From: Acidobacteriota bacterium
GTDB taxonomy: Bacteria; Acidobacteriota; Holophagae; Holophagales; Holophagaceae
Assembly: GCA_016213735.1 (NCBI GenBank)
Contig: JACQZU010000021.1
Span: 124,001 to 188,000 of the forward strand
Direction: 5' to 3'
DNA length: 64,000 bases
Each line of letters begins with the position of its first letter. Position 1 is the first letter of the stretch. The translations under genes and the position numbers were made by a program. This document shows, in pieces, positions 33,520-37,833 of the stretch. The notes below the pieces were generated by a model. It saw only the letters and a list, made by a program, of their open reading frames with translations. It made no database searches and had not been told where the DNA came from.

Positions 33520-33556
33520 GAATCAACGCAAAGGCGCAAAGGCGCGAAGAAAGGAA
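33520..33556 (+). repeat. Left inverted repeat of the 33.5-kb element
   Basis: Contains the tandem AACGCAAAGGCGCAAAGGCG motif followed by a GAAGAAAGGAAAAAA tail. It is preceded by a GGAAGGGAAGGAAGGGAAGG purine tract (33487-33512). Confidence 0.7.
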
Positions 33557-33750
33557 AAAATGGTGCCCCCTGATGGAGGGGCGGCACCCATGCAGCCGCG
33601 CGGGACCCTCCCACCCGTCCACTGGCCACCCCACCGGCGGAAGCGGCCGGGCCCCCCGCGCCCGGTGAGGGGAGTCCTGGATGGAATGTGCCCTGGGTTC
33701 AGCATCGCTCGGGGCCCTGCGGTTCTCGTTGTCCTGCGTTGGTTTCCTGT

Positions 33751-33787
33751 TTCTTTCCTTCGCGCCTTTGCGTCTTTGCGTTGATTG
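33751..33787 (-). repeat. Right inverted repeat of the 33.5-kb element
   Basis: Inverted copy of the left repeat with four mismatches (core AACGCAAAGACGCAAAGGCG on the minus strand). It lies 44 bp downstream of the pyrG stop in pyrG orientation. Confidence 0.7.
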
Positions 33788-33831: not shown

Positions 33832-35457
33832 TCACAGCCCCGCGCTGGCCTTCACGAAGGCCGTGAAGAGCGGGTGCGGGGCCAGGGGCTTGGACTTGAA
33901 CTCGGGGTGGAACTGGCAGCCCAGGAAGAAGGGGTGGTCCGGGATCTCCACGATCTCCACGAAGGTGCCGTCGGGGCTGAGGCCCGTGAAGGCCAGGCCC
34001 GCCTCCTCCAGCCGGGGCCGGTACTCGGCCTGGTTGAACTCGTAGCGGTGGCGGTGGCGCTCGCTGATCTCGGTGCTGCCGTAGGCGCGGTGCGCGAAGC
34101 TGTCCTCCTCCAGGAGGCAGGGGTAGGCCCCCAGGCGCATGGTGCCGCCCAGCTCCTCCACGTCCACCAGCTCCCGGAGCTTGAAGATCACGCGGTGCCG
34201 GGGGTTGTCGTCGAACTCCGTGCTGTCCGCGCCCTCCAGAAGGGCCACGTTGCGGGCGAACTCCACGCTGGCCATCTGCATGCCGAGGCAGATGCCGAAG
34301 AAGGGGACCTTCTTCTCCCGGGCGTGGCGGATGGACTCGATCATGCCCCGGGTGCCCCGCACGCCGAAGCCGCCGGGCACCAGGATCCCCTGGCAGTCCG
34401 CCAGCTGGGCCGCGGTGCCCTCCCCGTGCTCCAGCTCCTCCGCCTCCACCCACTTGAGGTCCACCGAGACGCCCAGGCCGTAGCCCGCGTGGTGCAGGGC
34501 CTCCGTGAGGCTCTTGTAGCTCTCCTTGAACTCCACGTACTTGCCCACGATGGCGATGCGCACGCTGCCCTTGGGGTTGCGGATGCGGTCCAGGAGGGCG
34601 TGCCACTTGGAGAGGTCGGGGCCGTCGTCCACCAGGTTCAGCAGGCGCGCCACCTTGGCGTCCAGGCCCTCGGCGTGGAGCTTGAGGGGCACCTCGTAGA
34701 TGGAGCGGGCGTCCTCCCCTGCGAAGACCGCGTCCGGGGTCACGGAGCAGAAGAGGGCGATCTTGTCCTTGAGGTCCCGGGGGATCTCCCGTTCCGCCCG
34801 GCAGAGCAGCACGTCGGGATGCAGGCCCAGGGCCCGCAGCTCCTTGACGCTGTGCTGGGTGGGCTTGGACTTCAACTCGCCGGCGGCCTTGATGAAGGGC
34901 ACGTAGGTGAGGTGCATGTTGACGGCGTTGCCCGCGCCCACCTCGAGCTTGAACTGCCGGATGGCCTCCAGGAAGGGCTGGCTCTCGATGTCGCCCACGG
35001 TGCCGCCGATTTCCACGATCACCACGTCCATGTCCTTGGCGACCTTCTTGATCGTGGACTTGATCTCGTCGGTGATGTGGGGGATCACCTGGACGGTCTT
35101 GCCCAGGTAGTCGCCCCGCCGCTCCTTCTGGATCACGGTGTTGTAGACCTTGCCGGTGGTGATGGTGTGGTTCTGGGTGGTGGGCACGCTGGTGAAGCGC
35201 TCGTAGTGGCCCAGGTCCAGGTCCGTCTCCGCGCCGTCGTCGGTGACGAAGACCTCCCCGTGCTGGAAGGGCGACATGGTGCCCGGGTCCACGTTGAGGT
35301 AGGGGTCCATCTTCATCAGGGTGACCTTGAGGCCCCGGGCCTCCAGCAGCGCCCCCAGGGAGGCCGCCGCGATGCCCTTGCCCAGGCTGGAGAGCACCCC
35401 CCCCGTCACGAAGACGAACTTCGTCGAGCCCAGGTCCATCGTGGTCGCGCGCGTCAT
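33832..35457 (-). CDS. pyrG: CTP synthase
   Basis: A 541-residue glutamine-dependent CTP synthase that aminates UTP. The synthase domain opens [17 protein letters not shown] (P-loop), with [21 protein letters not shown] next. The C-terminal class I glutaminase domain has the nucleophile Cys in FGICLGMQ and the catalytic His/Glu in [10 protein letters not shown]. The first ATG was used; an alternative ATG six codons later (35439) directly precedes the conserved start. The upstream gap holds repeat copy B of the GxxExxY element. Confidence 0.97.
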
Positions 35458-35477: not shown

Positions 35478-35511
35478 TTCACCGCCAAGACGCCAAGGGC
35501 GCCAAGAAAAG
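35478..35511 (+). repeat. CACCGCCAAGACGCC repeat, copy B
   Basis: Full-length copy with three CGCCAAG-type units followed by an A-rich tail (GAAAAAAAACAAAC to 35524). It lies between the 3' end of the GxxExxY gene and the pyrG start. Confidence 0.75.
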
Positions 35512-35533
35512 AAAAAAAACAAACTTGATCGGG

Positions 35534-36025
35534 TCAAAGCCTCGGCTCCATCCCTCGTTCGAGGATTCTTCGGGAAATTCCGTCCTTCATGAGCTTCACA
35601 TTGAAGTTCAGCAGGAATCCGAGCCGGATCCCGGAGAGTTTCAGGTAGGTGATGATCTGGGCCTCGTGGACCGGAAGCGCGGATTCCACGGCCTTGAGTT
35701 CGATGATGGCCAGGCCATCGACGACCATGTCGAGCCTCAAACCTGCATCCAGGGCAATCCCTTCGTAGTGAATCGGGATCCCCACTTGGGTTTCCACTCG
35801 GTGGCCACGGATTTCGAGTTCATGGGCGAGGCAAAGCTCATAGACCCGTTCCAGCAATCCAGGCCCCAAATGGGAGTGCACCTTCACCGCCGCATCCACG
35901 ATCGCCGAAGCCACCGCCTCTTCCTCCGGCAACAGGTCCTTTCTTGGCGTCTTCTCGGTATCGGCCTTGCCGATACGCGAGGCAAAATGAAATATGGCGT
36001 CTTGGCGGTGAAATCTTTTTTCCAT
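35534..36025 (-). CDS. GxxExxY protein (PD-(D/E)xK nuclease superfamily, PDDEXK_3)
   Basis: A 163-residue protein with the family signature G56-LL-E59-RV-Y62 and a nuclease-like core: D99 (LRLDM), then E109-L-K111 (AIIELKAVE), then EAQIITYLKL. This arrangement of D...ExK fits the PD-(D/E)xK fold; activity is unproven and the family's role is unknown. The first ten codons (MEKRFHRQDA) are read from the inverted repeat itself. The ATG overlaps the argS stop (TGATG) with GGAGGAG just upstream, so it is translationally coupled to argS. Its codon use (ATA, TTT, GAA) is less G+C-biased than the neighbours, suggesting acquisition. Confidence 0.88.
   Translation of the reverse strand: MEKRFHRQDAIFHFASRIGKADTEKTPRKDLLPEEEAVASAIVDAAVKVHSHLGPGLLERVYELCLAHELEIRGHRVETQVGIPIHYEGIALDAGLRLDMVVDGLAIIELKAVESALPVHEAQIITYLKLSGIRLGFLLNFNVKLMKDGISRRILERGMEPRL
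35941..36012 (-). repeat. CACCGCCAAGACGCC repeat, copy C, split by a hairpin insertion
   Basis: On the minus strand the repeat begins TTTCACCGCCAAGACGCCA and then resumes as AAGACGCCAAGAA after about 41 bp (35954-35994). The insertion holds a perfect 8-bp hairpin, GTATCGGC-CTT-GCCGATAC (35958-35976). The whole region is translated as residues 5-29 of the GxxExxY protein. Confidence 0.65.
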
Positions 36026-37833
36026 CACATCTCCTCCGGAGCCTGGATGCCCATGAGGTAGAGGCCCTGGCGCAGGGCCCGGGCGGTGGCGAGGCAGAGG
36101 GCGAGGCGGCTCTCCCGCACGGCGGCGGGGTTCTCCGCGGCCAGGACGGGGCAGAGGGTGTAGAAGCCGCTGAAGGCCCGGGCCACCGCCAGGAGCTGGC
36201 GGGCCAGGGCCGTGGCCATGCCCTCCCGGGCGGCGCTGCGCACGGCCTCGGGGAGCCCCCCGAGCTGGAAGAGCAGCTCCTGGGCGGCGGGATCCTCCAG
36301 GCCGGCCAGGTCCTGGGGAGCCTCGACGGGGAGGTAGTCCACCCCCGCGGACTCCGGGCAGGGCTCCGTGGACGGCCGCGCACGCGCGGCCCAGTCCCCC
36401 CCGGCCTTGCGGAGCACGGAGCAGATGCGGGCGTGGGCGTACTGCACGTAGGGCCCGGTGTCCCCGTCCAGGGCCACGGCCCGCTCCCAGGTGAAGGTGA
36501 TGGACTTCACGCGGTCGTTGATGGCGTTGAAGAAGAGCACGGCCCCCAGGCCGAGCATCTCGGCCACCCGCTCCTTGTCCGGCAGCTCGGGATTCTTCTC
36601 CTCGATCACGGCCCGCACCCGCTGCGCGGCCTCGTCCAGCACGTCCTCCAGGAAGATCACGTTGCCCTTGCGGGTGCTCATCTTTCCCTCGGGCAGCTGG
36701 ATGAGGCCGAAGGGCGTGTGCTTCAGGCGACCCTTGAACCAGGGGTCCAGCTTCTCGAGCACCGCGAAGACCTGCTGGAAGTGGAGCACCTGCTCGCCCC
36801 CCACCACGTAGAGGCAGCGGTCGAAGGCGTAAGTCCGCTGGCGGTAGAGGCCCGCCGCGATGTCGCGGGTGGCGTAGATGCTGGTGCCGTCGGCCTTCTG
36901 GAGGAGGCAGGGGGCCTGGATGCCCACGTCCTCCAGGTGGACGATGCGGGCCCCGTTCTCCCCTTCGACGAGGTGCCCCGAGGCCTCCAGCCGCTGGAGC
37001 GTGGCCGCGATCTGGTCCTCGTAGAAGGCCTCGCCCATCTCCAGGCTGTCGAAGGCCACGCCCAGGCGCTGATAGATGCGCTGGAACTCCCGCAGGCTGA
37101 TCTCGCGGAACCAGGACCAGAGGCGCCGGGCCTCGGGGTCCCCGGCCTCCAGGCGGCGGAACCAGTCCCGGGCCTCGTCCCGCATGGCGGGGTCCTTCTC
37201 CTCCTCGGCGTGGAAACGCACGTAGAGCTGGAAGAGGCGGAAGAGGGGGCTGCGCCGGGCCCCGGGGATCTCCTCGGCCCAGGGGAAGTCCCGGGAGAGC
37301 TCCGGGTTCTCCGCCTCCGCCCAGCGCTTGTAGGCCGCCAGCAGGGTGCCGAACTGGGTGCCCCAGTCCCCCAGGTGGTTCAGGCGCACCACCCGGGCCC
37401 CCAGGAAGCGGTGCACCTGCACCAGGGCGTGGCCGATCATGGTGGAGCGCAGGTGGCCGATGGTGAAGAGCTTGGCGATGTTCGGGGAGCTGTACTCCAC
37501 GATCACGACCTCGCCGTGGGGCTCGCCGCTGCCGTAGGGGCGAGCGGGCTCCGCCTGGAGGATCGCCTCCAGCAGCACCCGGGCCCGGTCCAGGGGGGCG
37601 AGCCTGAGGTTCAGGTAGGGGCCGGCGGCCACCAGGGCCGCCCCCTCCACGTTCAGTTCCGCCGCCAGGCGCCTGGCCAGCTCCGCGGGGTTGCCGCCCA
37701 GGGCCTTGGCGGCCCGGAAGCAGGGGAAGGCCAGGTCGCCGTGCTCGCCGGCCTTGGGACGCTCCAGGACGATGTCCTGCCCGGGCAACGCCGCCGCCAA
37801 GGCTCTTGAAAAGGCATCCTTCAGTCGCTCCAT
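36025..37833 (-). CDS. argS: Arginyl-tRNA synthetase
   Basis: A 602-residue class I synthetase that charges tRNA-Arg. It shows the N-terminal Add1 domain, the HIGH variant GHLRST after YSSPNIAKLFTI, the KMSTRKGN signature loop, and a C-terminal DALR anticodon-binding domain ending LYLMGIQAPEEM. Slightly longer than E. coli ArgS (577). Its stop codon overlaps the start of the GxxExxY gene. Confidence 0.97.
   Translation of the reverse strand: MERLKDAFSRALAAALPGQDIVLERPKAGEHGDLAFPCFRAAKALGGNPAELARRLAAELNVEGAALVAAGPYLNLRLAPLDRARVLLEAILQAEPARPYGSGEPHGEVVIVEYSSPNIAKLFTIGHLRSTMIGHALVQVHRFLGARVVRLNHLGDWGTQFGTLLAAYKRWAEAENPELSRDFPWAEEIPGARRSPLFRLFQLYVRFHAEEEKDPAMRDEARDWFRRLEAGDPEARRLWSWFREISLREFQRIYQRLGVAFDSLEMGEAFYEDQIAATLQRLEASGHLVEGENGARIVHLEDVGIQAPCLLQKADGTSIYATRDIAAGLYRQRTYAFDRCLYVVGGEQVLHFQQVFAVLEKLDPWFKGRLKHTPFGLIQLPEGKMSTRKGNVIFLEDVLDEAAQRVRAVIEEKNPELPDKERVAEMLGLGAVLFFNAINDRVKSITFTWERAVALDGDTGPYVQYAHARICSVLRKAGGDWAARARPSTEPCPESAGVDYLPVEAPQDLAGLEDPAAQELLFQLGGLPEAVRSAAREGMATALARQLLAVARAFSGFYTLCPVLAAENPAAVRESRLALCLATARALRQGLYLMGIQAPEEM

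Follow-up and report, generated by a model that had tools for sequence, protein, structure and literature searches.

GxxExxY nuclease-fold genes and their inverted iteron arms look like an undescribed family of self-spreading DNA

On the whole, GxxExxY genes together with the inverted arms at their two ends look like an undescribed family of self-spreading DNA whose enzyme is unlike the known transposases, because the same arms also lie, without any gene, throughout the genomes that carry GxxExxY. The starting point was one gene in a stretch of 64,000 nucleotides from an Acidobacteriota genome (below, the window). We consider it probable that gene and arms make up one unit of about 0.5 kb, in which a single nuclease recognises and cuts its own arms and the arm pairs spread. 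The best reading is a dispersed palindrome system of the REPIN/RAYT kind, run by an unrelated nuclease.

In the window, the GxxExxY/PDDEXK_3 gene is an open reading frame of 163 aa on the reverse strand (35534-36025, with its ATG at 36025). It lies between argS upstream (36025-37833) and pyrG downstream (33832-35457), both open reading frames on the same strand, and these two genes flank the insertion site; argS served to locate the junction in relatives, where the junctions with pyrG were compared. The protein matches TIGR04256 with E=3.5e-39 and 133.8 bits (curated cut-off 35) and PF13366 with E=7.4e-38 and 130 bits (curated cut-off 22), while nothing else in Pfam and NCBIfam exceeds its cut-off, known transposase and recombinase domains included. 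A previous reading of the sequence alone (the sequence-only reading) had placed the start of the gene inside the argS stop, after GGAGGAG, and had found it less G+C-rich than its neighbours. The coordinates agree with this: the A of the ATG is also part of the argS stop (TGATGG), with GGAGGAG lying upstream, and the gene has a G+C content of 56.5% against 71.9% in argS, 68.1% in pyrG and 71.0% in the whole window.

The same reading had pointed out a D99/E109-K111 motif, and D99 and E109-x-K111 are indeed the catalytic residues of the fold. They belong to a PD-(D/E)XK core domain (35570-35911, reverse strand) carrying G56xxE59xxY62, D99, E109-x-K111 and Q123xxxY127, which is supported by alignment, model and structure match. 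Among 81 sequences, E59, D99, E109 and K111 (E21, D61, E71 and K73 of the core) are invariant, and Q123 is kept in 80. The AlphaFold2 model of the window protein has a pLDDT of 96, and its best solved match by VIA-align is Cas4 SSO0001 (4ic1; Z 9.4, rmsd 3.3 A over 95 residues), followed by Hjc resolvases (Hjc Z 7.1), XisH, EcoRV and others at Z 6-8. Foldseek gives no match below E 0.001, so the assignment to Cas4/Hjc rests on the VIA-align Z scores and the motif. From this confident model, the window protein is predicted to have a Cas4/Hjc-like PD-(D/E)XK nuclease fold, and it is placed near the RecB/Cas4-like nucleases on account of the fold matches, the invariant residues and the QxxxY motif.

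The gene is bracketed by an exact 18-bp inverted repeat, TTCACCGCCAAGACGCCA, at 35478-35495 and 35995-36012, just as the sequence-only reading had described, and its 16-mer CACCGCCAAGACGCCA has exact matches within the 64 kb at these two arm positions only. This repeat is part of longer arms, which carry three tandem iterons CRCNRAG, one every 8-11 bp. The 3' arm TTCACCGCCAAGACGCCAAGGGCGCCAAGAAAA, at about 35478-35510 on the forward strand, has three CGCCAAG iterons reading inward, an anatomy common to 71 of 80 GxxExxY loci. In the 5' arm, on the reverse strand, iterons 1 and 2 lie in TTCACCGCCAAGACGCCA (35995-36012), and the third, found by motif match, is displaced to 35943-35957 (CGAGAAGACGCCAAG) by an insert of about 37 bp with a TATCGGCAAGGCCGATA palindrome (35958-35994). 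Genome G013 lacks the insert in its own copy at the argS-pyrG junction, and a segment resembling it sits inside another solo element of the source genome (L056). A small nested palindromic segment, TTTTGCCTCGCGTATCGGCAAGG, and its relatives recur inside the arms of different elements and genomes (window 35958-35994, L056 near 1650, L225 near 800). It had also been proposed that the 5' arm encodes the N-terminus of the protein. This arm does read as FHRQDA there, however among the loci with a clear 5' arm such translation is unavoidable in only 10 of 59; we therefore reject it as a functional feature and treat it as incidental, a minor and lineage-specific by-product.

To see the arms beyond the window, 80 GxxExxY loci were collected, with an alignment of 37 relatives. 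These loci cover bacteria and some archaea, namely Acidobacteria, Bacteroidetes, Chloroflexi, Planctomycetes, Proteobacteria, Cyanobacteria, Verrucomicrobia, Gemmatimonadetes, Ignavibacteria, KSB1, Methanosarcinales and others. A flanking inverted repeat scoring above the 99th percentile of 3175 control intervals is present in 63 of 79 loci, and by either the inverted-repeat score or the motif, arms are recognised in 71 of 80, the other 9 having no clear arms. Both arms match within 2 mismatches in 55 of 80 loci, compared with 2 of 1157 control windows. Repeats thus flank GxxExxY genes far above chance in many phyla, and the observation is confirmed and reaches far beyond one window. The shared build is TTxACC followed by three CRCNRAG units with a period of 8-11; in the period-8 arms, the iteron hardly ever varies at its C, C, A and G, and any base may stand at its fourth position. 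Other arrangements are seen as well: in many arm pairs of genome G083 the arms, about 38 bp apart, point away from each other and not towards each other (e.g. C112:16295-16349), and at G073:C64:2944-3461 tandem arms stand every 167 bp.

The source genome itself has three GxxExxY genes, each tightly flanked by inverted repeats of its own sequence but of common build, with iterons CGCCAAG, CACGAAAAG and CGCAGAATG respectively. The pattern CGCNAAGRCGCNAAG, at no more than 1 mismatch, occurs at 106 sites of this 3.6-Mb genome, against 20 for the reversed pattern. Among the 100 sites listed, 18 convergent arm pairs are found within 5 kb. Of these, 17 are solo and measure 65-254 bp, and the single pair between 260 bp and 5 kb (475 bp) encloses the GxxExxY gene. 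Divergent pairs among the listed sites are absent below 300 bp, and none is closer than 1.5 kb. The window contains a second element of the same build, identified by its inverted repeat and four exact motif matches, which is gene-less and lies 1.7 kb from the first (33521-33786, no strand assigned); its 37-bp arms, with CGCAAAGG/CGCGAAGA iterons, are 92% complementary and 192 bp apart. The CGCAAAGG arm type occurs on none of the three GxxExxY genes of the source genome.

Gene-less arms are also abundant in the relatives. When ACCRCNRAGRCRCNRAG is counted in the 60 relatives searched for the GxxExxY gene, the 35 genomes with the gene contain 1045 sites and the 25 without it only 16, while the reversed control pattern gives 14 and 4 sites respectively (Mann-Whitney p=3e-9, Spearman 0.70). 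The repeats are thus not scattered independently of GxxExxY, the outcome by which the sequence-only reading had proposed that it could be overturned. In a multi-phylum set of 50 genomes, about 1290 motif sites stand against 13 control sites in sum. Two genomes, G021 and G036, have 6-7 motif sites each and no detected GxxExxY gene. In the flanks of the 80 loci, solo arms are more like the arms of the gene whose locus they share (0.67) than like the arms found at other loci (0.45; 0 of 5000 permutations). In genome G034, all 20 motif sites sampled are solo elements, nearly all of them recognisable hairpin pairs. Some contain the inner sequence CTTTTGCAGTTCTTGG, which is also present at the end of the gene-bearing element of that genome, as would be expected of internal-deletion derivatives. 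An Rfam search of the region gave no credible family. Among congeners, palindromic tandem-iteron repeats of a different type, CTGAAGACTGAAGACT and CAGCTGTCAGCTATCAG, are found in one intergenic region, the counterpart of L233 about 6000 (L237 and L238 in G003 and G021; L239 and L240 in G027 and G036).

The states of single sites were compared between relatives. At the argS-pyrG junction, and within the family, genomes G000, G013, G017 and G034 have the gene with its arms, and G005 has a 5'-truncated GxxExxY gene between intact arms. Solo pairs of three iteron types occupy the junction in G002, G009 and G015, an arm relic is left in G006, and seven genomes are empty (G003, G004, G010, G012, G014, G021 and G022); the empty sites suggested as a check are thus found beside solo, truncated and gene-bearing states. 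In the tree, the argS-pyrG copies of G000, G013 and G034 fall in one clade with a copy of G029 (support 0.957), which points to an old insertion passed on mostly by vertical descent; other GxxExxY copies of those same genomes lie far apart. Congeners of G034 likewise show empty sites where that genome has solo elements. One site in Nostoc is occupied by two different cassettes of gene plus arms in different species and by nothing in G112 and G116, an absence that could reflect loss instead of the state before insertion; a second Nostoc query fell in a complex repeat region. In another Nostoc relative, G117 (L263), the site of the two cassettes is filled by a different palindrome with GGCAGGAGGCAGAGGGCAGAAGG arms and no gene of the GxxExxY family. 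At argS-pyrG, in the congeners of G034 and in Nostoc, no target-site duplication or excision product is seen, and the exact boundaries are unreadable since the genomes compared belong to different genera or species and are too diverged for exact ends. Phages give no GxxExxY match and plasmids give matches in 8 of 72,556 records, none typed as mobilisable; therefore phage or plasmid transfer is not the main route.

The arms match each other and go with the protein. The spacing of iterons is equal in both arms for 51 of 55 elements (shuffled mean 19.5, maximum 32), and the nine variable iteron positions show 0.81 identity within an element against 0.44 between elements. Arm similarity tracks protein similarity (Mantel rho 0.25, 0 of 2000 permutations, n=54). 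By our reading of the family-level set, the ES(A/V)YE subfamily has arms of CRCNRAG type and the EKVYEN subfamily arms of GAT type, e.g. CACCGATGAACACTGAT; as both iteron classes are present within the single genome G034, the difference goes with the protein and is not explained by the host. Arms thus agree within an element and vary between elements, and are of a type that follows the protein subfamily. Such covariation suggests that the GxxExxY protein may recognise the arms. In the Nostoc relative G110 (L259), the two GxxExxY arms contain the same additional segment, CGAAGCGGCTTCCCGCAGGGTAGG, as mirror images, which would fit the copying of one arm from the other.

As to binding, cutting, movement and the mode of spread, we infer the following course. 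The nuclease would recognise its own arms by their iterons, probably acting as a dimer on arms that are paired or extruded, and would cut there. Since a PD-(D/E)XK hydrolase alone cannot join ends, some activity of the host or of a partner must take part; the host may repair or copy the cut product and so give rise to arm pairs at new intergenic sites. Internal deletions of the element would produce the solo pairs, hairpins of about 60-250 bp, which the resident nuclease could then disperse in trans. The gene lineages would mainly be inherited vertically and would each keep an iteron type of their own, in the way of RAYT genes and their REPINs. Several observations speak against this course: no target-site duplication or excision product was seen among the diverged genomes compared, the argS-pyrG copy looks old and vertical, 9 loci have no clear arms, G021 and G036 have motif sites with no detected gene, and IS5-like units can carry the gene as a passenger. 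We lean, with some reserve, to the wider proposal that this is a pan-prokaryotic class of mobile DNA whose sole dedicated enzyme is a PD-(D/E)XK nuclease. This enzyme would read inverted arms of three iterons and scatter gene-less hairpins in trans, a solution separate from the HUH-based REPIN/RAYT system. The previous suggestion of a selfish or domesticated cassette is supported, since the two comparative checks that it named turned out in its favour; the association of gene with repeats and the presence or absence at sites stand as observed, while movement and repeat cleavage are probable steps of the proposed course.

Another enzyme, be it a chromosomal transposase or host recombination, might instead move the palindromes, with GxxExxY as cargo captured between the arms. 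PD-(D/E)XK enzymes are not known to join DNA, which favours this explanation, and so does the carriage of GxxExxY inside IS5-like units in G004, G022 and G014, by which the protein can evidently be a passenger. These units are multi-copy transposons with CTAG ends (L064-L082 in G004, L083-L092 in G022 and L099-L102 in G014). The 50 GxxExxY matches of G004 were accordingly rejected as a case of gene-driven amplification, and this copy number is not used as evidence, because the copies are passengers of the IS5-like transposon; many of them share one internal deletion, which keeps the first 53 profile positions. Against the cargo explanation, the arms covary with the GxxExxY protein, solo elements match the arms of the local gene, and in the source genome the sites listed enclose no further gene at distances up to 5 kb. 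It is further weakened by the 20 genomes having at least 10 motif sites, since all 20 have the GxxExxY gene while 12, namely the source genome and 11 other repeat-rich relatives, have no HUH Y1 transposase (PF01797). A RAYT/IS200 mover is rejected for the source genome, which has no PF01797 match. Overall, we regard capture as cargo as unlikely.

A homing or restriction-like role has also been considered, in which the nuclease would cut arm-less alleles or foreign DNA and the arms would mark self or serve as homology for repair or cassette exchange. Homing and restriction enzymes with the PD-(D/E)XK fold exist, and at the Nostoc site mentioned above two cassettes of arms plus gene replace each other. 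However, no family of the PADLOC anti-phage defence models matches, the sites are many and unrelated in sequence, and gene-less solo pairs far outnumber the genes, contrary to what homing predicts; such a role therefore seems improbable to us.

The arms could alternatively be operators, with GxxExxY a DNA- or RNA-acting regulator of itself and of a regulon at the solo sites. Three tandem iterons do resemble a cooperative binding site, and the 5' arm overlaps the start of the gene. On the other hand, the arms are paired and inverted, the 3' arm stands after the gene, and the catalytic residues are invariant. The sampled solos of G034 also disfavour operators, because they sit at gene ends: when a simple ORF rule is used to call genes, 28 of the 36 gene ends that border them prove to be 3' ends, and 11 of 18 solos are between convergent genes and 1 of 18 between divergent ones. 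We give regulation very little credence. Finally, a single 18-bp repeat in one window might be coincidence, but a chance inverted repeat at one gene is refuted by the 55 of 80 loci against 2 of 1157 control windows and by the 1045 sites against 16, and can practically be dismissed.

The dispersed palindromes run by the GxxExxY nuclease are best compared with REPIN/REP and RAYT (REPtron, TIRtron), which form short inverted extragenic pairs, folding as hairpins, in many copies, and in which a dedicated small enzyme gene is flanked by the same repeats and the repeat type follows the enzyme lineage (PMC3116915, PMC3733652). The likeness to REP-associated transposases, already drawn from the sequence, holds for the layout, in that inverted doublets are dispersed extragenically (the 17 solo pairs of the source genome, the G034 solos at gene ends). 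The enzyme class differs: the partner here is PD-(D/E)XK and not HUH/Y1, and the system occurs where no Y1_Tnp exists. The arms differ as well, with their TTxACC start and triple CRCNRAG iterons and without the GTAG tag at one palindrome end that is part of the REP definition (PMC3733652). Insertion sequences and MITEs resemble the elements in having inverted arms at both ends of one gene, plus gene-less derivatives in the same genomes. Unlike them, GxxExxY elements have no DDE, Ser, Tyr or HUH recombinase, and their arms are iteron arrays which vary between elements. No target duplication is found at the junctions compared across genera and species, which are too diverged for exact ends.

On the enzyme side, Cas4/RecB-like nucleases and Hjc share the fold and the E...D...ExK...QxxxY motif (Cas4 SSO0001 Z 9.4, Hjc Z 7.1). 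GxxExxY differs from Cas4 in being a minimal domain of about 115 residues, whose alignment has no invariant cysteines for an Fe-S cluster (Cas4 has four cysteines), and in that its gene is embedded in its own repeat and not in a CRISPR locus. XisH, the fdxN element excision controlling factor, works on a single element together with the recombinase XisF, and is not known to have iteron arms. It is likewise a small PD-(D/E)XK protein tied to programmed DNA excision (2okf and 2inb, Z 6.1-6.3). In the open-access literature, we found no account of GxxExxY with repeats nor any bacterial use of the repeat strings searched. Of the open papers, only two name GxxExxY, one in passing beside a reverse transcriptase and the other in work on an algal virus; a Cas4 phylogenomics paper does not mention the family.

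The layout is of a known kind, while the enzyme and the repeats are new. If the reading of GxxExxY as the enzyme of its own dispersed arms is true, a large family of orphan nucleases would acquire a role, the palindromic repeat TTxACC-(CRCNRAG)3 that runs through many phyla would have a common origin, and dispersed hairpins with a dedicated enzyme would have evolved at least twice, with unrelated chemistry; if the nuclease is the mover, it would represent a new class of mobile-DNA enzyme.
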